Shown piece after piece: positions 27,748-39,283 of a DNA stretch of 64,000 nt. The notes beneath the pieces are model-generated. The model worked only from the letters and a program-made list of their open reading frames with translations. It was not told the DNA's origin and did no database searches. How positions within the stretch are numbered: the first letter of the stretch is position 1; each line of letters starts with the position of its first letter. Both the position numbers and the translations under genes were made by a program. This stretch comes from Blastococcus sp. Marseille-P5729 (lineage in GTDB: Bacteria; Actinomycetota; Actinomycetes; Mycobacteriales; Antricoccaceae): positions 248,001 through 312,000 of the forward strand of contig NZ_OMPO01000003.1 in assembly GCF_900292035.1 (NCBI RefSeq), read 5' to 3'.

Positions 27748-29580
27748 CTATTCTGCGTTCTCCAGATTGGTCTTGAGCGTGTTCAGCTCATCGTTCATCG
27801 ACGACGGCAGGCGATCGCCGAGCGTCTGGAACCACTCCTCGATCAGCGGGAGCTCCTGCTTCCACTCGTCGACGTTGACCGCCGACGCCTTGGCGAGCTG
27901 CTCGTCGCTGATGTTCAGGCCCTCGGTGTCGAGCGCGCCCTGGGCCGGCACGAGGCCGATCGCGGTGTCGACGGCGTCAGCCTTGCCCTCAAGACGCTCG
28001 ATGATCCACTTGAGCACGCGGCTGTTGTCGCCGAAGCCCGGCCACAGGAACGAGCCGTCGTCGTCGCGGCGGAACCAGTTGACGTAGAAGATCCGCGGCA
28101 TCTTCTCCGCGTCGGACTTCTTGCCCATCTCGATCCAGTGGTTGATGTAGTCACCGGCGTTGTAGCCGATGAACGGCAGCATCGCCATCGGATCGCGGCG
28201 GACGACGCCCACGGCGCCGGTCGCGGCGGCGGTGGTCTCCGACGAGGTGGTCGCGCCCATGAACACGCCGTGCTGCCAGTCGCGGGACTCGGTCACCAGC
28301 GGGATCGTGGTCTTGCGGCGTCCACCGAAGATGATCGCCGAGATGGGCACGCCGTTGGGCTCGCTGTTGTACTCCTCAGCGAGCACGGGGCACTGCTCGA
28401 TCGGGGTGCAGAAGCGGCTGTTCGGGTGCGAGGAGAGCTGGTCGGACTCCGGCGTCCAGTCGTTGCCGTGCCAGTCGATCAGGTGTGCGGGCTTCTCCTC
28501 GGTCATGCCCTCCCACCACACGTCACCGTCGTCGGTGCGTGCCACGTTGGTGAACAGGGAGTTGCCGGCGTCCATTGTGCGCATCGCGTTGGGGTTGGTC
28601 TGGTACGAGGTGCCGGGGGCGACGCCGAAGAACCCGAACTCCGGGTTGATCGCATAGAGGCGGCCGTCCTTGCCGAAGCGCAGCCAGGCGATGTCATCGC
28701 CCAGGGTCTCGACCTTCCAGCCCTCGACGGTCGGCTCGAGCATCGCCAGGTTGGTCTTGCCGCAGGCGGACGGGAAGGCGCCGGTGATGTAGTGCACCTT
28801 GCCCTCGGGGGAGGTCAGCTTGAGGATCAGCATGTGCTCGGCCATCCAGCCTTCGTCCCGGCCGAGGACCGAGCCGATGCGCAGCGCGTAGCACTTCTTG
28901 CCCAGCAGTGCGTTTCCGCCGTACCCCGAGCCGTAGGACCAGATCTCGCGGGTCTCCGGGAAGTGGCTGATGTACTTGGTGGTGTTGCAGGGCCACGGGA
29001 CGTCCTGCTCGCCCTCCTCAAGGGGCGCGCCGACGGAGTGCAGGCACTTGACGAACGGCTTGTCCTCGCCCATGGCATCCAGCACGTTCTGGCCGGTGCG
29101 GCACATGATGCGCATGGAGATGACGACGTACTCGGAGTCGGTGACCTCGACCCCGAACTTCGGGTCGTCGGCGTCGATCGGGCCCATGCAGAAGGGCACG
29201 ACGTACATCGTGCGGCCCTTCATCGAGCCGGTGTAGAGACCGGTCATGGTCTCCTTCATCTTGGCCGGGTCCATCCAGTTGTTGGTCGGGCCGGCATCCT
29301 CCTCCTTCTCGGAGCAGATGAAGGTCTGGTCCTCGACGCGTGCAACATCGCTCGGGTCGGACATCGCCCAGAACGAGTTTGGGCGCTTCTCTTCGTTCAG
29401 CTGGACGATGGTGCCTGCCTCGACGAGCTCGTCGGTCATCTGCTTCCACTCCGCGTCGGAGCCATCGACCCAGCGGATGTCCTTCGGCTGGGTGATCTCG
29501 GCGACCTCGGCGACCCAGGCAAGGAGTTCCTTGTGCTTGGTCGGGGCGTCCTGGAGGGCGGGGAACTCTGTCGAAGTCAC
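27748..29580 (-). CDS. pckG: Phosphoenolpyruvate carboxykinase (GTP)
   Basis: 610-residue GTP-dependent PEP carboxykinase, converting oxaloacetate and GTP to PEP for gluconeogenesis. The P-loop [12 protein letters not shown] lies at residues 269-280 with the reactive Cys273. Also present are [16 protein letters not shown] (216-230), the metal/GTP segments GDDIAWLRF and FFGVAPGT, and [14 protein letters not shown] near residue 475. The start is GTG, with AGGAG seven bases upstream. It is the normal actinobacterial form. Upstream lie an imperfect 34-base palindrome and a divergent small membrane-protein gene. Confidence 0.97.
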
Positions 29581-29619
29581 GGGGGTGCTCCTTGCGATCT
29601 ACTTGAGTGACACCTGGTC

Positions 29620-29653
29620 TATCCACCATATGCCCTGGGGCATGTGATGGATA
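29620..29653. promoter_or_regulatory. Imperfect palindrome upstream of pckG
   Basis: TATCCACCATATGCCC and GGGCATGTGATGGATA match as inverted arms with two mismatches and a two-base centre. It lies 40-73 bases before the pckG start, in the promoter region, and fits a dimeric repressor or activator site. No candidate regulator is adjacent. Confidence 0.45.
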
Positions 29654-29741
29654 TCCACAAGGACCGCGAAAGTGCTCACATCGTGGTAACACGAGGCACG
29701 CCGCCGTGATGCGCGGGTTACGGAAGGACCCCGCCGTGTTG

Positions 29742-29784
29742 CGATTGTGACTATTGGTGCTTGTGAAACGATTGTGATTATTGG
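29742..29784. promoter_or_regulatory. Direct repeat upstream of 29845 gene
   Basis: CGATTGTGACTATTGG (29742-29757) and CGATTGTGATTATTGG (29769-29784) are 16-base direct repeats with one mismatch and a 27-base period. They are AT-richer than their surroundings and sit 61-103 bases before the small membrane-protein start. A pair of activator-binding sites is possible. Confidence 0.45.
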
Positions 29785-29844
29785 GACAGCCGTCGTAGGC
29801 TCAACGCACCGATCCTTGCTCTTCCCCGGCTCGAAGGTCACCCC

Positions 29845-30288
29845 ATGGTTTCGATGCGTCCGCTCAGCCGACGTCTTGGCGTACCCCACCCGCACTGGCC
29901 TGCGCTGCCCAGCAGCGACCAGCACGGAATCGCCACCCAGCGCGCGCTCTACACGGTCGGCGCTACTCAGGCGCTGTCCGCGGTGGTGTTCGCGCTCCTG
30001 GCCATCTCCGCGCGCTCGCACTTCATCGTCAACACCTACTACCTGTTCTGGGTGCCGTTCTTCGTCGCGCTGCTCGCCATCGCGATGACCGTCATCGGGC
30101 ACCTGGGCAGCCTGTCGGCGCCCTGGCTTGCGGCCCTGCTGAACCTTCCGCTGGCGCTCACGGCGCTGTACGTCGACAGCGCGCTCGGCTCGGTGCTGCT
30201 GATCGCCGCGCTGCTGGCATCGGCGGGGTGGCTGGGCTTCAACCTGCTCGAGGACTCCGCCAAGCGAAACCCCGTCGACGACTTCTAG
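29845..30288 (+). CDS. Small four-helix membrane protein, unknown function
   Basis: 147-residue protein. After a 35-residue hydrophilic N-terminus (PHPHWPALPSSDQHG) four hydrophobic segments follow (about residues 42-56, 63-83, 90-108 and 113-131), ending in a polar tail EDSAKRNPVDDF. The start may be ATG 29845 or ATG 29854. GAAGGT lies a few bases upstream. No known family was recognised. It diverges from pckG across a 264-base spacer with a direct repeat and a palindrome. Confidence 0.65.
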   Translation: MVSMRPLSRRLGVPHPHWPALPSSDQHGIATQRALYTVGATQALSAVVFALLAISARSHFIVNTYYLFWVPFFVALLAIAMTVIGHLGSLSAPWLAALLNLPLALTALYVDSALGSVLLIAALLASAGWLGFNLLEDSAKRNPVDDF

Positions 30289-30588
30289 TGGACCGGCCGA
30301 CCGTGGCCTGCCGACACTTCCGTCCTGCGTCGTCTCTGCGCGCCTGCGGCGCTCATCGACAAGCGTGTATCGATCGCTGCTGATCGACGAGCGGCTGAAG
30401 CGACCGGGCCACGCCACAACTAGCCGTCTCCGGCTCGAATCACGACCGCTCACACCGCCGGGCCGGTGCGAGCGGCGTCAGCGCCCCGTCGCGGACATAG
30501 CGCCCGATGACGCGCGGCGGGTCCTCACGCCCGGGCCGGGGTGCGGTGTGCTCATGAGCACATGCATCCCCGAGTGACCCGCGGCTAG
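30289..30588. other. Intergenic region without recognised gene
   Basis: 300 bases between a small membrane-protein gene and the convergent dynamin gene. The only clear structure is the perfect palindrome TGTGCTCATGAGCACA (30547-30562), flanked by GGGG and CCCC, 27 bases beyond the dynamin stop; it may act as that operon's terminator. No convincing reading frame or RNA was seen. Confidence 0.5.
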
Positions 30589-32973
30589 CTACTCGGACGG
30601 CGGATCATCGGGAAATTTCCCGAACTGCACCGGCATACTCGTCGCGGGCCCCGCCCCGAACTGGGCAGAGGTGGGCGGGGAGCTCCGCGGCGCCGATGGC
30701 CCAGCGGGCGTCGCCGGCACGGCCGGAGCGCCAGGTGCTGGGCCCGGCTCGGGATCAGGTGGCGGGTCCGTGGCGGGTGTGCCGGAGCCGGGGTCGCGCT
30801 CGGCGGCTCGCCTGGCCGCCAGGCGGGCAGACGCCGCCCGGGCCATCTCGGCGACCGACTGCGGGGCGCGGGCCGGCTTCGCCGGGGCTGCCTGATCGGC
30901 GGACGGTGCCGGCTGCCGGGCCGCTGGCGGGGGCGCCTGATCGGCCGACGGTGCGGGTTGCCGGGCCGCCGGCGGGGGCGCCTGATCGGCCGGCGGTGCG
31001 GGTTGCCGGGCCGGGACCTGCTGCGGGACCGGGGGCAACGGCCGGGACTCGGCCGGCCGGGCTGCCTGGTCCTGGGGCGCTCCCTCGGGGCGCGGCGGCG
31101 CCGGGGGGCGGTTCGGGTCGCGGCGCTGGACGACGGCGTTGCGCAGCCGCGGCAGCAACTGGTCGATGGTGCCGACGACGTCCCGGACGGCGGCGATCTG
31201 CTTGGTGATCTCGGCGGCCCGACGCTCGCGCTCGCCGCGATCGACCTTCAGTGATTGGTCGATCTGCTTGATATGCCCGTCGAGGGTCTCGATCCGGCGC
31301 ACCAGCGCACGGTCCAGCGCGAGAGTCAGCTCGTGCTCGGCTTCGATGAAGTACGCGGATGCGTCGGCCTCGAGACGAGCACGCGTCTCGCCGAGGGTCT
31401 CGTTCAGCCAGACCTTGAGCTGGTTGCGGTCCGAGGCGGTGCGGCGTGCCCAGACGATCCAGCCCGCCACGCTCAGCCCCACCGCGACCGCGATCGGCCA
31501 CGCGACGATGGCCGCGCCGGTCGCGTAGGTCAGCGTCGAGCCGGTGATGCTGGTGATCGAGATGCCCGACATCATGCTGATGTTCGTCAGCACCTTCTCG
31601 TCGGCGGAGGACTGCCGCTTCGCGGGCCCGGCGGCGCTCGCCACCTGCCGGGGCCGCTGGAGCGCGGCGTACACCTCGGCCAGCTCGTTCTGCGCGAACA
31701 TCGACTGCAGCACCGACCGCGAGACGCCGCGCATGCGCGCCTGCTGCCGGTCGAAGATCTGCATCGACGAGGCCTTCAGCGCCATGTCGAGCTGCGGCCC
31801 GATGTGCGCGAGATGACCCTTGTCCACCTCCTCGATCTGCCGCCGCCAGTAGGCGAGGAACTTCCGGTTCTCGGACTGGATGTCGGCCATCGTGTCGAGG
31901 CGGGCTCGTGACAACAGCGAACGCAGCCGCAGCTGCCACGCGCGGGAGTCGGCCTTGCGCGCCTGCAGCAGTCGGTCGCGGTTCTCCTTGAGACGATTGG
32001 CGTACTCGAGGTCCGGCTGGCAGGCGCGCCGGCTGTCCTCGAGGCTGGTCAGCAGCCCTTCGAGCTGCGAGCGCATGGTGCGCAGCAGGTTCGCCTCGTG
32101 CAGCGCCGAGGCCTTGACCGCCACCTGCTGCTGGAGCGCAATCTGCAGCTGGGTGACATTCGATTCCTTGCGTAGCGCCTGTCCGAGGTCGCTGGGCCCC
32201 ATCAGTGCGGCCTGCTCGAAGAGCTTGGCCGAGACCGGGAGCATGACGCTGTCGGCGAATCGCGGCGCGTGCTCTCGTAGCAGCTTGCGGTTGTCCTCGA
32301 CGATCTGCCGCCAGCCGCGATAGGCATCGGTCTTGGTCACCGCGAAGATGACGAGATCGATGTTCTTCGATGCCTTGTCGAGGAAGTCCAGCTCGGGCTT
32401 GGTGAACGGCGCCGAGGCGTCACACACGAACAGCAGCGCCGTGGCGCGGCCGACCGCCCGTAGCGCGATCTCCGCGTGGGTGGCATCCAGGCCGCCGACC
32501 CCAGGAGTATCGACGATGTTCAGCTTGCCCAGCAACGGCGAGTCGCACTCGACCTCGATCAGCCGAGGTGGGGCGTACTGCCCGCGATTGCCGAGGTCCG
32601 TGGCCCAGTCCCGCATCGAGTCGAGTGGGACGTCGACCGGCTCCTGCTGACCGGGCAGCAGAGCTCGTGCGGCGGTCTTGGGTCCGCGCCGGAACATGAT
32701 GTAGGTGCTGGTCGCGACGCGGGCATCTACCGGGGACAGGCCTGACACGTTGATGAGGGCATTGGTCAGGCTCGACTTGCCGCGCTTGGCCTCGCCCACC
32801 ACGACCACGGTCGGCTTGTCGGGCCGAGTGGCGCGCATCCGGGACAACCGCGAGGCCATCTCCGGGTCGTGCTTGTCGAGCCCCGCCAGACCGCGATCGG
32901 CGGTCTGCCGGGCCAGCTGGGATAGCGTGATGCGCTTGGCCGGGGCACCGCCGCGCTGCTGAGGTTGCGTCAT
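30589..32973 (-). CDS. Dynamin-like GTPase with Pro-rich C-terminus (IniA-like)
   Basis: 794-residue dynamin-like GTPase. G1 GEAKRGKSS (residues 60-68), G3 DTPGVGG (155-161) and G4 TKTD (213-216) are clear. A long helical stalk follows, then a hydrophobic membrane-insertion region (about 470-520: NISMMSGISITSITG to the AIVAWPIAVAVGLSVAGW stretch), more coiled coil, and a 150-residue Pro/Ala-rich tail with tandem PAPSADQAPPPAARQ repeats. Its ATG overlaps the stop of the GrpE-like gene by one base. It is the last gene of the Hsp70-dynamin operon. IniA-type proteins of mycobacteria remodel membranes under cell-envelope stress; the same role is an inference here. Confidence 0.88.
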   Translation of the reverse strand: MTQPQQRGGAPAKRITLSQLARQTADRGLAGLDKHDPEMASRLSRMRATRPDKPTVVVVGEAKRGKSSLTNALINVSGLSPVDARVATSTYIMFRRGPKTAARALLPGQQEPVDVPLDSMRDWATDLGNRGQYAPPRLIEVECDSPLLGKLNIVDTPGVGGLDATHAEIALRAVGRATALLFVCDASAPFTKPELDFLDKASKNIDLVIFAVTKTDAYRGWRQIVEDNRKLLREHAPRFADSVMLPVSAKLFEQAALMGPSDLGQALRKESNVTQLQIALQQQVAVKASALHEANLLRTMRSQLEGLLTSLEDSRRACQPDLEYANRLKENRDRLLQARKADSRAWQLRLRSLLSRARLDTMADIQSENRKFLAYWRRQIEEVDKGHLAHIGPQLDMALKASSMQIFDRQQARMRGVSRSVLQSMFAQNELAEVYAALQRPRQVASAAGPAKRQSSADEKVLTNISMMSGISITSITGSTLTYATGAAIVAWPIAVAVGLSVAGWIVWARRTASDRNQLKVWLNETLGETRARLEADASAYFIEAEHELTLALDRALVRRIETLDGHIKQIDQSLKVDRGERERRAAEITKQIAAVRDVVGTIDQLLPRLRNAVVQRRDPNRPPAPPRPEGAPQDQAARPAESRPLPPVPQQVPARQPAPPADQAPPPAARQPAPSADQAPPPAARQPAPSADQAAPAKPARAPQSVAEMARAASARLAARRAAERDPGSGTPATDPPPDPEPGPAPGAPAVPATPAGPSAPRSSPPTSAQFGAGPATSMPVQFGKFPDDPPSE
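30891..31015. repeat. 45-bp coding minisatellite in dynamin gene
   Basis: Nearly three copies of a 45-base unit, with CCTGATCGGC recurring at 30891, 30936 and 30981. The unit encodes 15 residues of Pro/Ala repeat (PAPSADQAPPPAARQ). Copies two and three are almost identical in DNA, so the array is young and may vary in number between strains. Confidence 0.75.
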
Positions 32974-33512
32974 CAGGACCCGCCGCGGTCCGTGGTGTAG
33001 ACGGTCACAATCGGGTGGCGCACCATCCGGTCGCCATCGCTGTACCCGGCCAGCTCGATCTCGGCGATGGTGCCGTGCTGGTCGGCGTCCTCGGTGAAGA
33101 CGGTCGCGGAGGCCTCGTGCCGCTGCGCGTCGAAGCGGTCGCCGACCTGCGGCACGATCACCTGGATGCCGAGCTGGGCCAGGTTGTCATCCATGCGCGA
33201 GGCGACCGCCGGAGAGGACACCCGATCGCGCGCGTACAGCAACAGGTCGATCATCTTGTCGCGCTCGTTCTGCAGCGCCACCAGTGCCTCGAGGTGCGGG
33301 CGGACCTCGGAATACAGGACGTAGTCCTCGCCGTCGTCGCCGTCCGTTGCCTGTTGGTCACTGACCGGGTGGATCTGGTCAGAGCCGTCGTCCGCCGCGT
33401 CGTCGTACTCGTAGTCGGTCTCCTCGTCGACGGGACGCTCCCGCAAGGCGTGATCGAGCGCGTCGTCCGCCTCGGCGCCGACGGTGCTCTGCTGGTCGTC
33501 GCGGCTGGTCAT
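32973..33512 (-). CDS. GrpE-like nucleotide-exchange factor
   Basis: 179-residue protein. The first 70 residues are strongly acidic and disordered (DEETDYEYDDAADDGSD), then a helix (about 80-105: LEALVALQNERDKMIDLLLYARD) and a C-terminal beta domain. The GrpE signature is recognisable: RFDAQRHEASATVF, TIAEIELAGY and MVRHPIVTVYT (FDxxxHEA, GY, RxxxVxV). The ATG overlaps the stop of the upstream dynamin gene (ATGA), and its own stop overlaps the next dynamin start. It is probably a dedicated exchange factor for the Hsp70-like protein of the same operon, distinct from the housekeeping GrpE; this is inferred from position. Confidence 0.82.
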   Translation of the reverse strand: MTSRDDQQSTVGAEADDALDHALRERPVDEETDYEYDDAADDGSDQIHPVSDQQATDGDDGEDYVLYSEVRPHLEALVALQNERDKMIDLLLYARDRVSSPAVASRMDDNLAQLGIQVIVPQVGDRFDAQRHEASATVFTEDADQHGTIAEIELAGYSDGDRMVRHPIVTVYTTDRGGS

Positions 33513-35020
33513 GAGGGTGCTCCTCCCGTGTCGAGAGCTCGCAGCTGCTGCCAGAGCATGAAGTACGAACGGTGAATCGTGTGTCCGATCCGGCTTTGGG
33601 CCGGCGTGGAGCCGAAGGTGGCGAAGCTGCGCCACCTGCCGGCGGCGTCGAAGGCGGCCTGGACGAGGTCGGGCAGTGGCGCACCGTGCCTGCCCAGCAT
33701 GTCGTCCGGACCGGATCCGGTGACGAGCTGCCGGACCTCGTCGAACATGTCGTCGGGTAGCTCGACCTTGCCGCTGGTCACGAGAGTGGCGGCTTCCAGC
33801 AGGCGAAGCTGCTGCGCTTCGGGGTGCTGGTAGAGCTCCTCGAGGAAGTCGTAGATCGTGTCACGGATCTGTGGAGGGGACTTCGCGGCCAGCTCGTCGA
33901 GCGAGGTCAGCGCAACCGCGGACTTGATGTCGTCGGCCCGCACGCTGAACACGCCGTCGATGATCCGGTGCAGATCGGGAAAACCGGACTGCGCCTCAAG
34001 CAGCTGGCGTAGGGCGCCGGTGGTGATCTGCGGATCGGCGAGGATCGCATCGACGGCCTTGCGTGCGCCGTACCGGTCGAGCCGGGTCAACAGCCGTTCG
34101 CGGGCATCGACGTCGACCGGGATCTCGGGCCGTACGAAGAAGTCGGTCGACATGAACAGGACGTCGCGACTGGCCTCGTCGAGTGCCGCGATCTCGCGCA
34201 GCGTCTGGGCATCGGCCTCGGTGAAGTTGCCCGTGAGCGCCGACTCGGCCATCAGCCCCACGAGGGGCAGCACCTGCGAGACGGCGTGCCGCAGCGTGTG
34301 CGAGTGCTCGGCGGCCAGCTCGGCAGCGGCCGCCATCGGGTCGTCGGCCTGAACCTGGTCGGCCTTGTTGAGGATCGCGAGCGCGTTGATCGGGCTGCTG
34401 GTATGGCCGCCTGAGGTGCGGCGGAAGGCGCTCAGCGCGTCGGCGTCGTCGGCTCGGATGGACTGGGTGATGACGTAGAGGACCGCCTCCGCGGACGACA
34501 CGGCCTGCTGGGACCGCTCATCGACCTCGCCGGTGCCGCCGCCGAGCATCTCCTCGGTGCGCCCGGCACTCTGCTCGTGGAGCGAGGCCAGCCCCGGAGT
34601 GTCGATGATCGTCACCTGCCGCAGCGCGTCGTAGGTGAGGTAGGCATCCACGACCGCGACCTCCTCGGGCGCGCAGCCCAGATCCGCGGGGATGACGCCG
34701 TCGCCGTCGTACGGGATCGTCAGCACGCTGCCGTCGACCTTGCGCACCTCGACGCGATCGACCGTGCCGTACTGGAAGCGGGTCACCATCCGGGTGCACT
34801 CGCGGACGTCGGTCGCCGACACCCGCCGGCCGATCAGCGCGTTCACCACGGTGGACTTGCCCGATTTGATGCGACCGGCGACGGCGAGCTGCAATGGGCC
34901 TTCGAGACGGCCGAGGATGCCGCGGATCTGGTTCGCGGTCTCCGGCGGCACCTGCTGCACGAGCGAGCGAGCCATCTCGACGACGAGCGCGGACATGCGT
35001 CGCCGCTGCGGGCTGGTCAT
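33509..35020 (-). CDS. Dynamin-like GTPase (IniC-like)
   Basis: 503-residue GTPase shorter than its partner. G1 is AGRIKSGKST (about 48-57), G3 DTPGL (about 141-145, IIDTPGLASLHEQ) and G4 NKAD (about 218). Helical stalk segments follow; there is no obvious transmembrane stretch and no Pro-rich tail. AAGGAG lies eight bases before the ATG. It follows the Hsp70 stop by 51 bases and overlaps the GrpE-like gene. Pairs of unequal dynamin-like proteins are typical (IniA/IniC in mycobacteria, DynA/DynB in streptomycetes), one inserting in the membrane and one peripheral. Confidence 0.87.
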   Translation of the reverse strand: MTSPQRRRMSALVVEMARSLVQQVPPETANQIRGILGRLEGPLQLAVAGRIKSGKSTVVNALIGRRVSATDVRECTRMVTRFQYGTVDRVEVRKVDGSVLTIPYDGDGVIPADLGCAPEEVAVVDAYLTYDALRQVTIIDTPGLASLHEQSAGRTEEMLGGGTGEVDERSQQAVSSAEAVLYVITQSIRADDADALSAFRRTSGGHTSSPINALAILNKADQVQADDPMAAAAELAAEHSHTLRHAVSQVLPLVGLMAESALTGNFTEADAQTLREIAALDEASRDVLFMSTDFFVRPEIPVDVDARERLLTRLDRYGARKAVDAILADPQITTGALRQLLEAQSGFPDLHRIIDGVFSVRADDIKSAVALTSLDELAAKSPPQIRDTIYDFLEELYQHPEAQQLRLLEAATLVTSGKVELPDDMFDEVRQLVTGSGPDDMLGRHGAPLPDLVQAAFDAAGRWRSFATFGSTPAQSRIGHTIHRSYFMLWQQLRALDTGGAPS

Positions 35021-35071
35021 CGGGTGGCTCCTTTCCGGTCGGTGTATGCGGCCCCGGTACCGGTTCGCGGG

Positions 35072-36811
35072 TCAGAGGTTCGTGAACAGGATGATCAGCA
35101 GGATCACCGCGGTCACGCCGATCGCGGCCCAGATCAGCGGCTGCCAGTTGGTCTGCTGCGGTTGGCTCGCCGGCGGGCTGCTGTGCGGCGGGGCAGGCGG
35201 GCGCGCCGGTTGGGCGGCTGGCTGCGCGGGGCGGGCGATCGGGCCGGTCGCGGGTCGAGAGATCGAGCCGGTCGGCGGACGCTGCTGCGCGCCGGTGGAC
35301 GGCCGCGGGTTATTCGGCTGCGATATCGGCCCGCTGGCTGGTGACCTGGGCGCGGGGCGCTGCTGCGGGCCGGTCGTCGGCGATGGCCGCAGGGTGGGCC
35401 CGGTCGACGGGGCCGCCATCGGCCCGCTCATCGGGCGCGCGGCCGGATGCGCCCCACCGCCCGGCGAACGCTGCGGGCCCAGCTGACCCGGCTGCGGGAT
35501 CCGGCGAATGTTGCCGGTCGGCGCTTGCGGGCGGACGGTACGGATCTGCGGCAGCTCGCCCGGAGTCACCCGGCGGGTGGCGTCACCCATTCCCGAGCCG
35601 CCCGGGCCGGGAACCGGCCGGGGGCCGGGCATTCCCGGGCGGCCGGGCTGATTGCCCGCCGGCCCTCGGGGCGGGCTTTGCGGAGCACCGAGCTGCGGGA
35701 TGACGGGGGTGGCGTTCTGGTCCGGGCGGGCGCCGCGCTGGTTGCCCACGTTCAGGTAGAGGGCGCCGCTGGCGACCGTCGCCTCGGGCTGGTCGAGGGT
35801 CGCCGGAGTGACTCCGAGGCCCTCCTGGATCAGTCGCGCCACCAGCGGCACGCGCGAGGACCCACCGACCAGGTACACGCCGGCGAGCTTGTCGGCCGTC
35901 AGGTTCGCATCGCTGATGGTGGTCGAGAGCAGCTCGACCGAGCGGGCGAGGTTGGGGCGGATCAGCTCCTCGAACTCGCTGCGCGTGATGTGCACGTCGT
36001 GGAACGGCGCCGGGAAGGCGATGTCGGTGTGCGGGTGCCGCGACAACGCTTCCTTGCCTTCCTTGATGTCGACGGCGAGGGCGCGCTGCGCCCGCCGGCT
36101 CGCGGTATCGGTGGGGCGGTTGAGGCGTGCCCACTCCTCCGGATTCACTGTCTCTTGGCTCTTGCCGACGTGCTCGAGGATGGCGTGGTCGAAGTCCAGA
36201 CCGCCGAGGTCGGGCAGCCCGGCCTCGGCGGTGACCTCGAAGCCGTTATCGGTCTTCTGCACGATGGCGACGTCGAACGTGCCACCGCCGAGGTCGTACA
36301 CCGCCAGGGCCTGACCGGGCTGCATGTTGTGCCCGCCCTGGGTGACGAAGTGGGTGGCGGCGCCGACCGGTTCGGGGACGAGGATCGGATCGTCCGACAG
36401 CCCGGCCTCGCGGCAGGCCGCGACCAGGACGTCGCGACGGGTCTTGCGCCAGCGCGCGGGATGAGTGAGCCGGACGACGTCCGGTTTGGCGCCGTCGAAC
36501 TGCAGCTGGAACTCCTGCAGGACCCGCTTCAGGACGGCGGCGATCGCCTGCCGCACAGGGATGACGTCGCTGCCGAGCAGCATCTCCCCGTCGTCGATCC
36601 GCCGCTTCGGGTTGGGTTCGTAGCGGCTCGGATCGATGCGGGCCTGCCGGTCGGCGTCGCGACCGACCGCGATGGTGCCGTCCTCGGCCAGGTAGATCGA
36701 GCTGGGGACGAGCGGGCTGCCGTCGATCGTGAGCAGGCGTGGCGCAGCACCATCGACCGACACGGCGGCGACCGTGTTCGAGGTACCGAAGTCGATCGCG
36801 AGTACGCGCAT
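35072..36811 (-). CDS. Membrane-anchored Hsp70-like ATPase lacking substrate-binding domain
   Basis: 579-residue Hsp70-family protein. The actin-like ATPase domain spans about residues 1-360, with IDFGTSNT (6-13), VYDLGGGTFDVA (about 185-196), and GVYLVGGSSRVPLV (about 328-341). No peptide-binding domain follows. Instead there is a 190-residue Pro/Gly/Arg/Gln-rich disordered linker and a single C-terminal helix (about 556-577: LIWAAIGVTAVILLIILF), so it should be tail-anchored with the ATPase in the cytoplasm. The ATG at 36811 begins the ATPase fold exactly; a longer frame upstream looks non-coding. It is the first gene of the operon with two dynamins and a GrpE-like protein. Confidence 0.87.
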   Translation of the reverse strand: MRVLAIDFGTSNTVAAVSVDGAAPRLLTIDGSPLVPSSIYLAEDGTIAVGRDADRQARIDPSRYEPNPKRRIDDGEMLLGSDVIPVRQAIAAVLKRVLQEFQLQFDGAKPDVVRLTHPARWRKTRRDVLVAACREAGLSDDPILVPEPVGAATHFVTQGGHNMQPGQALAVYDLGGGTFDVAIVQKTDNGFEVTAEAGLPDLGGLDFDHAILEHVGKSQETVNPEEWARLNRPTDTASRRAQRALAVDIKEGKEALSRHPHTDIAFPAPFHDVHITRSEFEELIRPNLARSVELLSTTISDANLTADKLAGVYLVGGSSRVPLVARLIQEGLGVTPATLDQPEATVASGALYLNVGNQRGARPDQNATPVIPQLGAPQSPPRGPAGNQPGRPGMPGPRPVPGPGGSGMGDATRRVTPGELPQIRTVRPQAPTGNIRRIPQPGQLGPQRSPGGGAHPAARPMSGPMAAPSTGPTLRPSPTTGPQQRPAPRSPASGPISQPNNPRPSTGAQQRPPTGSISRPATGPIARPAQPAAQPARPPAPPHSSPPASQPQQTNWQPLIWAAIGVTAVILLIILFTNL

Positions 36812-37147
36812 TATCACCCCTACACCTGTTCTTCGTGACGCGACGGCGCCCGGATCCACGGTTCGCGGGGCCAACACGCCACCTGACATCCTGCCATGTG
36901 GAACGCCCCCGGAGAGGGTGCCTGCTCGTCTCGGACGAAGCGAGCGGCCGGTTCGCTCCCCGGTGCCCGAGACAGATCGCTCAGCGCGCATGCGTCGTCG
37001 GGTGCCTAGCAGTCGAGCCTGGCTCATCCCCGGTCAACGGCAGGCAAACCAATGGTCACGGTTTGTCTAACAACCGCTGGTCCCTACGGACCCGCGTTAG
37101 TGTGTCCGGAGCGCAGCCGAACTGGACCCGAAACGAAGGACGGCTCT
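36812..37147. other. Divergent promoter region of Hsp70 and EspI-like genes
   Basis: 336 bases between divergent starts. No reading frame, RNA or long repeat was recognised. AAGGA stands eight bases before the GTG of the EspI-like gene, and AGGGGTG precedes the Hsp70 ATG. The region is large enough for two promoters and shared control. Confidence 0.5.
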
Positions 37148-39283
37148 GTGGGCAAGAAGAAGGACGACACCGACGACGAGCTGTGGCTGGCGGAGATCCG
37201 CGCGAGCAAGGACGACGACTTCCACTCGATCAGCGGTGCTTCGTTGCCGCCCGATCCCTGGCTCGACGGTCCGCAGCCCGGCGCGATCGACCGTGGCGCG
37301 CCACCGCAGGCGCCTGATCCGTTTGCCGCTCCCGCCCCGGACCAGCTGCCCCCAGCGTTCGCGGACCGCCAGAGCACCACCCCGGCCGACCCGTGGGCGC
37401 ACGTGGACGACACTCCGGCCCCCGCGCCCCCGTCGGACGAGCCGGTCAGCCAGTGGGCGCCGCACACGCCACCTCCGCCGGCCCCGATGCCTACCGCCGC
37501 GCCCCGCAGCGAGGATCCGGGGATGCCGATCGTCCAGGGGCCGCGCGAGCCGATGCCCATCCCCCGCATCGAGGACCCGTGGGCTCCGCGTCCAGCAGAG
37601 CGCGCGGACGCCGAGCAGCTGCAGCAGCCCGGCTACGAGATCCCGCGGCTCCAGCCCGAGCAGCACCCTCCGGCGCCGCCGGAGCAGGTTCGTGTCGACT
37701 CGGGCCGGGTCGCGGAGACAACCATGGCGCAGGAACCGGCCGAGCCGCACGGCGGGCGCCACGCCCTGCCCGAGAACGGCGACCCCGCCGAACCGTCCGA
37801 GCCCACCAGGCCTGCCGAGCCCGCCGAGTCCAGCAAGCCCGCCGAGTCGGCCGAGCCCCGCATGCCCGCCGAGCCGGCCCCGCTGAAAGCACCGGACGGC
37901 GGCTCGGACCCGTGGACCGCGGTCGCCGGGTCGACACCGCTGCGCCAGGCATGGGAGGGCGCCCCGGCTCATCAGGGTTCCGGCCAGCAGTTCGCCACCC
38001 TGCCGTCGATGCCGGCGCGGCGCGATCAGCAGCCGGGATTCCCGCCGCAGGCGCCGGCCGCCGCGGGGCCGGTGACCCCGCCGGCCCGCGACGCGCAGAC
38101 CGCCTATCAGGGACAGCCCGGTGGCGCCTATCAGGGACAACCCGGTGGAGCGACAGCGCAACACGCGCCCGGCGGTTCCCCGCCCGCGCAGACCGACCCG
38201 TTCCGGTCCGCGGAGTCCGGTAGCTTCCACGCGCCCCAGGCCCCGCAGACCGGCGCGTTCGCCGTCCCGCAGCAAGGCCACAACGGAGGTGTTCCGTCGC
38301 AGCTCGGCGGGCAGCAGGCCCCCTCGCCTTCGATCATGCCGCTCGACCTGAGCGACGCCGCACTGGTGAAGCAGCGCACGGAGACGCCGGAGGGCGGGTG
38401 GCGGCGCGCGGTCTACAAGGCATCCTTCGGCGGCATCAACCCGGGAATCTCGCGGGAGCAGGCTGAGAAGAACGCACTCATCGAGCGGATCCGCACGCCC
38501 ATCCGTGGCTGCCATAAGATCGCCGTCGTCAGCCTCAAGGGCGGTATCGGGAAGACCACGACCACCTCGTGCCTCGGGCTGACCCTCGCCCACTACCGCG
38601 GAGACCGGGTCGTCGCGCTCGATGCCAACCCGGATGCCGGAACCCTTGCCGAGCGACTCACCGGCGTCACTGACGTCTCGGTGCGCGACATGCTCGACAA
38701 CCTGGACAGCATCCGCTCGTTCACCGACATCTCGCGCTACATGTCCCTGGCCAGCCGGCTGCAGGTGCTCGCCTCCGATCAGGACGCAGAGGTCAGCGAG
38801 GCCTTCGATGCCGAGCAGTACAAGCGCGTCACCGATCTGCTCGCGCAGTACTACAACGTGATCCTCACCGATTCCGGCACCGGCATGCTGCACTCGGCGA
38901 TGCGCGGGACGCTCGAAGAAGCCGACTCGCTGGTCGTCGTCGGCGCGCCGAGCGTCGACGGCTCGTCACGCGCGGCGAAGACCCTGGACTGGCTCGTCGC
39001 GCACGGCTACGGCGATCTCGTCGCCGGATCGGTCGCGGTCATCTCGTCGGTGCGGGAGAAGTCGAACTCCGTCGACATGGGCGTGCTGCGCAACCACTTC
39101 GGCGCTCGCTGCCGGTCGGTGATCGAGATCCCGTTCGACCCGCACCTGGTGATCGGCGGCCGCATCGACATGTCGCAGATCAGCCCGCTCACGGAGCGGG
39201 CCTACCTGGAGCTGGCTGCGACGGTGGCCGACGGCTTCCGTGTCCCCACCAGCACCCGGCAGCCCGGCAACCCGGGGTACTAG
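37148..39283 (+). CDS. EspI-like MinD/ParA-family ATPase with Pro-rich N-terminus
   Basis: 711-residue protein. About residues 1-415 are Pro/Ala/Glu-rich and disordered, with a 24-base tandem repeat coding GAYQGQPG. The C-terminal ATPase begins with WRRAVYKASFGGINPG and RIRTPIRGCHKIAVVSLKGGIGKTT; the deviant Walker A K464GGIGKTT has the signature first Lys. ALDANPDAG and LTDSGTGMLHSAM follow. This layout matches the MinD-like EspI/type VII secretion-associated ATPases of mycobacteria. The GTG at 37148 has AAGGA upstream. Divergent placement suggests it works with the dynamin-Hsp70 operon, or it may serve a type VII secretion system outside the window. Confidence 0.85.
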   Translation: MGKKKDDTDDELWLAEIRASKDDDFHSISGASLPPDPWLDGPQPGAIDRGAPPQAPDPFAAPAPDQLPPAFADRQSTTPADPWAHVDDTPAPAPPSDEPVSQWAPHTPPPPAPMPTAAPRSEDPGMPIVQGPREPMPIPRIEDPWAPRPAERADAEQLQQPGYEIPRLQPEQHPPAPPEQVRVDSGRVAETTMAQEPAEPHGGRHALPENGDPAEPSEPTRPAEPAESSKPAESAEPRMPAEPAPLKAPDGGSDPWTAVAGSTPLRQAWEGAPAHQGSGQQFATLPSMPARRDQQPGFPPQAPAAAGPVTPPARDAQTAYQGQPGGAYQGQPGGATAQHAPGGSPPAQTDPFRSAESGSFHAPQAPQTGAFAVPQQGHNGGVPSQLGGQQAPSPSIMPLDLSDAALVKQRTETPEGGWRRAVYKASFGGINPGISREQAEKNALIERIRTPIRGCHKIAVVSLKGGIGKTTTTSCLGLTLAHYRGDRVVALDANPDAGTLAERLTGVTDVSVRDMLDNLDSIRSFTDISRYMSLASRLQVLASDQDAEVSEAFDAEQYKRVTDLLAQYYNVILTDSGTGMLHSAMRGTLEEADSLVVVGAPSVDGSSRAAKTLDWLVAHGYGDLVAGSVAVISSVREKSNSVDMGVLRNHFGARCRSVIEIPFDPHLVIGGRIDMSQISPLTERAYLELAATVADGFRVPTSTRQPGNPGY
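38102..38149 (+). repeat. 24-bp tandem repeat in coding sequence
   Basis: Two head-to-tail copies of a 24-base unit starting GCCTATCAGGGACA, differing at two positions. They encode AYQGQPGG twice in the disordered region of the EspI-like protein. Confidence 0.85.

Follow-up and report, generated by a model that had tools for sequence, protein, structure and literature searches.

An ini-type dynamin pair associated with an Hsp70-fold ATPase and a dedicated GrpE in actinobacteria

In one operon of the 64,000-nucleotide stretch of DNA analysed here (the window), an ini-type dynamin pair is encoded together with an ATPase of the Hsp70 fold and with a dedicated GrpE, and this association is conserved. 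The IniA/IniC pair was already known, as was a dnaK-like gene in the ini locus of M. smegmatis, which is mentioned in one sentence of PMC5760070. In line with the original prediction, no description of the four genes as a combined system was found in the open-licence PMC literature, nor was any of a dynamin system with GrpE or Hsp70 apart from that mention. The best explanation, to which we give about an even chance, is that the dynamin pair acts under envelope stress and is gated by the membrane-anchored Hsp70-fold ATPase, which the co-encoded GrpE would reset. It is based on the conservation of linkage, on co-occurrence, on ATPase, GTPase and GrpE folds that are intact, and on membrane segments; how the proteins touch one another, which of them controls which and what they do in stress are what we infer.

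The operon and the proteins it encodes

The operon runs on the minus strand and codes, in this order, for an Hsp70-like ATPase (36811-35072), an IniC-like dynamin (35020-33509), a GrpE-like protein (33512-32973) and an IniA-like dynamin (32973-30589). It is flanked by a divergent plus-strand gene (37148-39283) for a MinD/ParA-type (EspI-like) ATPase with a CbiA/AAA_31 match and a Pro-rich N-terminal arm of ~400 residues. All five open reading frames are in place as claimed, with significant Pfam domain matches. The overlaps proposed for the last three genes were read directly, as ATGA for the iniC stop and grpE start (33512-33509) and as TGATG for the grpE stop and iniA start at 32973; the start of the GrpE-like gene itself had to be moved from 33635 to the ATG at 33512, leaving a protein of 179 aa. 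Purine runs resembling ribosome-binding sites lie upstream of both iniC and grpE. Alignment to orthologues points to ATG 36811, not 37027, as the most likely start of the Hsp70-like gene. The MinD-like gene probably starts at GTG 37148. No sigma-70-type consensus was found in the divergent intergenic (promoter) region bounded by these two assigned starts (36812-37147). Downstream of the operon, the gene for PEPCK (GTP) (27748-29580, minus strand; identified by Pfam), which is also conserved in Pseudonocardiaceae, is chromosomal context rather than part of the system. Between it and the IniA-like dynamin gene lies an open reading frame of 284 residues (29599-30453), weakly conserved in the window's family and without a family match.

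The Pfam HSP70 match of the first protein (E=3e-34) ends where the ATPase domain ends, so that the peptide-binding domain is absent. The ATPase domain is followed by ~200 Pro-rich residues, seen in the translation (35144-35734, minus strand), and by a hydrophobic segment, the putative C-terminal membrane helix LIWAAIGVTAVILLIILFT (35081-35137, minus strand; hydropathy 2.72), which stops 2 residues short of the C-terminus. Orthologues from the module with a complete open reading frame likewise carry a transmembrane segment C-terminal to the ATPase domain. The catalytic residues are intact (D, T, K, P, R and E, with DLGGGTFD and GGSSR). Compared with DnaK, no VLLLDVTPL-type interdomain linker is present, nor is the arginine that contacts the J-domain conserved; a J-protein gene was not found at the window locus. 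The exposed loop of lobe IIB is ~7 residues shorter than in the DnaK of the same genome, and its residues differ. In DnaK, this loop is the site that GrpE touches (contact residues as in 1DKG). The housekeeping dnaK and grpE of the genome are separate copies on another contig. The original prediction had the Hsp70-like protein, with its exchange factor, act on dynamin oligomers. Of this, the conserved association with the dynamin pair and a dedicated GrpE is supported; a classical chaperone cycle that would disassemble such oligomers is partly disfavoured because the peptide-binding half is missing, and the lack of the linker, the unconserved arginine and the short lobe IIB loop argue in the same direction.

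The GrpE-like protein was recognized by Pfam (GrpE, E=5.8e-10) and by a sequence-based PDB profile search (8gb3, 9blt, 1dkg). Its predicted model, with a core pLDDT >93, retains the GrpE fold with the beta wing, and its best 12 Foldseek matches, among them 1dkg, 9bls and 8gb3, consist entirely of GrpE or GrpE-Hsp70 entries. A predicted helix of 33 residues (65-97) and a short helix (101-113) accompany the wing in this compact GrpE. Among the residues contacting Hsp70 in 1DKG, the FDP..HEA core is kept and others vary; on the Hsp70 side, the contacts for GrpE depart from the canonical ones. In three families (f4, f10 and f12) the GrpE-like protein has two transmembrane segments, which would put it at the membrane beside the tail-anchored Hsp70. 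At four loci (L069, L071, L072 and L073) both segments are N-terminal, which would make it a membrane-bound GrpE.

The two co-encoded dynamin GTPases are unlike each other, and both carry G1, G3 and G4 motifs. The IniC-like protein (Dynamin_N, E=2.6e-13; G1 GRIKSGKS, G3 DTPG, G4 NKAD) was assigned by its position in the IniC tree. The IniA-like protein (Dynamin_N, E=6e-14), with a hydrophobic tip segment and a Pro-rich tail, matches the solved IniA structure 6j72 with E=3e-26. Two lineages are seen in the IniC tree, one mycobacterial and one comprising the window's IniC, which falls outside the mycobacterial clade as its sister and in whose lineage GrpE is linked. Since some genomes hold both, the two lineages are not simple orthologues.

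Conservation across genomes

Of 101 genomes surveyed from the window's order, 31 carry a GrpE-like gene, which lies at most 1.6 kb from iniC in 30 of them; in 18 of the 31, iniC has an Hsp70-like gene at a distance of no more than 11 kb. The Hsp70-like gene is present in 30/31 genomes with and 14/70 without the GrpE-like gene (Fisher p=7e-14, with genomes sharing ancestry counted as independent), and the sole GrpE-like-carrying genome without it is truncated at a contig end. The order Hsp70-IniC-GrpE-IniA is retained by every relative in the small family of the window, with one locus truncated where its contig ends. Families f4, f10 and f12 have the Hsp70-like gene beside IniC-GrpE-IniA on the opposite strand. 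A divergent operon in genome G033 has all four genes reordered as IniA-GrpE-Hsp70-IniC, its GrpE matching Pfam with E=1.2e-9. A scan of named genomes, nearly all Pseudonocardiaceae, gave IniC-GrpE-IniA in order on one strand at 78/80 loci, and at 76 of these 78 no Hsp70-like gene was found within the fetched flanks. The GrpE-like stop overlaps a start codon in the IniA frame at 67/92 loci, which is consistent with co-translation. In a phylum-wide sample of 149 genomes, the dedicated GrpE-like gene turned up in no genome but the window's own; the remaining matches score at the level of housekeeping GrpE. The linkage in related genomes on which the original prediction had been staked beforehand is thus conserved, and chance adjacency is rejected by its retention over several families and by the counts given above (78/80, 30/31, 18/31 and 67/92).

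Could the neighbourhood have been kept, as an old chromosomal region including PEPCK that rearranges slowly, with no joint function of its genes? PEPCK is indeed close to the module in the window and in most Pseudonocardiaceae loci. The stop/start overlaps, the recurrence of the same four genes in changed order and the persistence of the linkage at loci where PEPCK was not found make this explanation very improbable.

The gene order proposed for actinobacterial genomes had included the MinD-like gene. The linkage of dynamins, GrpE and Hsp70-like protein is conserved, whereas the MinD-like gene adjoins the module only in the window's family. Its own family occurs in 60/101 genomes of the order, with close orthologues in members of family f16, where no dynamin module was found. 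The MinD-like ATPase is therefore treated as a neighbour that is probably not a component of the system, contrary to the original prediction.

Some observations on linkage count against gating of the dynamins by the Hsp70-like ATPase. The IniC-GrpE-IniA clusters of Pseudonocardiaceae have no adjoining Hsp70-like gene, the copies of that gene sitting by recA or eccC, and three genomes (G009, G044 and G058) have the Hsp70-like gene in intact form while lacking the GrpE-like gene, so that GrpE is not strictly needed. The altered lobe IIB loop and the shared ancestry behind the counts also weigh against it. The reordered operon of G033 and the Hsp70-like gene at the sister iniAC locus count in its favour. 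The Pseudonocardiaceae arrangement, with the GrpE-like gene by the dynamins and Hsp70-like genes elsewhere, fits another explanation, in which the GrpE-like protein serves the housekeeping DnaK and draws this general chaperone to the dynamins, while the task of the Hsp70-like protein lies elsewhere. This explanation would also fit the location of housekeeping dnaK-grpE in f7, the mycobacterial-type family, several genera of which have the pair 1-2 kb downstream of iniC. We consider it unlikely, as the presence of the GrpE-like gene tracks that of the Hsp70-like family and the same genome already has a housekeeping GrpE.

Other genes were seen at these loci. At L136 (11660-13586), iniC and the GrpE-like gene are separated by an insertion that encodes a small helical protein resembling WXG100 and two related lipoprotein-like products. 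A LuxR-type regulator similar in size to IniR adjoins the module in other families; at L056, L069, L071-L073, L086 and L095 it has ~810-960 aa and is divergent from iniC, resembling IniR in size and layout, with detectable sequence similarity confined to the DNA-binding end.

Relatives of the Hsp70-like ATPase at ini, recA and type VII loci

In family f7, which we infer to be mycobacterial-type from its iniR-iniA-iniC locus, iniA-iniC is accompanied by a gene for a membrane Hsp70-like protein, which in most cases sits between iniR and the dynamin genes and is oriented divergently from the latter. In the residue table, for which 20 such ini loci were used, the equivalents of DnaK D8, K70 and R151 are lost in 20/20 sequences. 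Outside f7, nearly all rows retain D8 and K70, and some differ at R151. No dedicated GrpE was found in f7, the GrpE matches near its ini loci being copies beside the housekeeping dnaK, and in the genomes surveyed a degenerate Hsp70 was never found together with a dedicated GrpE. This pseudo-ATPase gene occurs at the ini locus of many genera, mostly between iniR and iniA-iniC (L193, L195, L208-L214, L216-L227). Two Hsp70-like proteins of ini-type loci (L197:15513-18140 and L196:16746-19376) carry beta-propeller repeats (NHL, PD40), presumably extracellular, after the membrane helix. The Hsp70-like partner is not known from M. tuberculosis.

These degenerate proteins bear on the main rival explanation, in which the Hsp70-like protein would serve as a scaffold of actin/MreB fold and bring the dynamins to particular membrane sites, ATP turnover being secondary and GrpE maintaining the ATP form. 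As they have lost their catalytic residues and have been retained at the ini locus in many genera, a non-catalytic role would be enough there. The lack of a peptide-binding domain, an interdomain linker and a J-domain contact, together with a weak match of the Hsp70-like protein to the MreB profile, also agrees with a scaffold. Wherever the GrpE-like gene occurs, however, the Hsp70-like protein retains its full set of catalytic residues, which a pure scaffold would not need, and we regard this explanation as rather doubtful.

The Hsp70-like family has other homes as well. In Pseudonocardiaceae (f14), one copy adjoins recA and another lies ~100 bp from eccC in most genomes, an Hsp70-like gene adjoining eccC in 11/11 genomes of this family. 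The eccC-linked loci that were inspected have WXG100, EccD or mycosin genes near, and rplM-rpsI alongside in one. Three loci (L075, L077 and L079, the last with rplM-rpsI near) are ESX-4-like type VII loci in which a membrane-anchored Hsp70 ATPase-domain protein is encoded next to eccC, an arrangement of which no description was found in the open-licence PMC literature. In three genomes of family f3, the distance between eccC and the module's Hsp70-like gene is ~4 kb, and one of these genomes has eccD immediately upstream. From the eccC linkage in Pseudonocardiaceae and these f3 genomes, it could be argued that the system is a type VII secretion accessory, the Hsp70-like family energising or gating ESX export and the dynamins remodelling the membrane for it. 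No eccC, eccD or WXG100 gene was found beside the operon of the window, however, the eccC genes of its genome lying on other contigs, and the ESX-linked Hsp70 proteins form a separate clade, so that such a role is quite improbable. In the Hsp70 tree, both the recA-linked and the ESX-linked clades are separate from the dynamin-linked ones; two of the three DnaK rows were disregarded, as they appear to be translated from the wrong strand, and the grouping of the Hsp70-like clades is independent of them. The clade encoded beside recA, also of membrane proteins with an Hsp70 ATPase domain, was seen at L059, L061, L062, L065-L067, L089-L091 and L094.

Candidate mechanism and comparison with known systems

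Treatment with isoniazid and ethambutol makes iniA and iniC some of the most strongly induced genes. In the gated dynamin pair that we prefer, the IniA/IniC-type proteins would act at the plasma membrane under envelope stress, and the tail helix would seat the Hsp70-like protein in that membrane. Its ATP or ADP state would set whether the dynamin pair is held or released, through a direct contact made by the ATPase domain or the Pro-rich arm rather than by a peptide-binding domain. The GrpE-like protein, putatively coupled to IniA in translation, would swap ADP for ATP and so reset the gate, and the released dynamins could then deform or cut the membrane using GTP.

The co-encoding of dynamins and Hsp70 in many actinobacteria, with GrpE in one lineage, suggests an Hsp70-type switch controlling membrane repair. 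The conserved Hsp70-like partner is a concrete, testable candidate control factor for IniA/IniC that occurs in a laboratory mycobacterium. If the proposal is true, bacterial dynamins would be under the control of an Hsp70-fold switch, and the pairing of a dedicated GrpE with an Hsp70 that has no peptide-binding domain would be a case of exchange factors working outside chaperone cycles. It is possible, though we put it forward only tentatively, that the membrane-anchored Hsp70 ATPase domains of actinobacteria are a general nucleotide switch, gating ini-type dynamins with a private GrpE as reset, gating the ESX channel in a sister clade, and having turned into a pseudo-ATPase in mycobacteria, where GrpE is missing.

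With the DnaK-GrpE system, the operon has in common an Hsp70 ATPase domain whose catalytic residues are intact and a GrpE with helices and beta wing. It differs in having a membrane anchor and no peptide-binding domain or interdomain linker, and in the N-terminal helix of the GrpE-like protein, which is shorter than usual for GrpE. The GAP1-N2 GTPase conflict systems (Kaur et al. 2020, PMC7159879) also comprise actinobacterial GTPases linked to HSP70 and GrpE, including HSP70 without the peptide-binding domain. They have GAP1, FNIII and zinc-ribbon GTPase parts of their own, none of which was found here, and dynamins are absent from the main text describing them (PMC7159879). An identity of the operon with these systems was rejected, as the genes scanned beside the operon and beside related operons gave no Pfam match to GAP1 or FNIII components. 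An anti-phage defence system or island was also rejected, PADLOC giving only generic dynamin similarity to LeoA/LeoBC.

Bacterial dynamins usually work as unlike pairs, and two unlike dynamins are encoded side by side in Cj-DLP1/2, DynA/DynB and LeoABC as they are in the window (PMC6104087). Unlike the pair of the window, these pairs are not known to have an Hsp70 or GrpE partner. The closest comparison is with the mycobacterial iniBAC operon, with its regulator IniR and with IniA, which in the case of M. smegmatis cuts membranes in vitro in a GTP-dependent way (PMC6715688). The flanking genes scanned at the window locus included no IniR-like gene. Both loci have a homologous dynamin pair in one operon and, in the mycobacterial-type family, a membrane Hsp70-like gene; in contrast to iniBAC, the dynamin pair of the window belongs to a sister lineage and is accompanied by a dedicated GrpE and by an Hsp70 ATPase that is intact.
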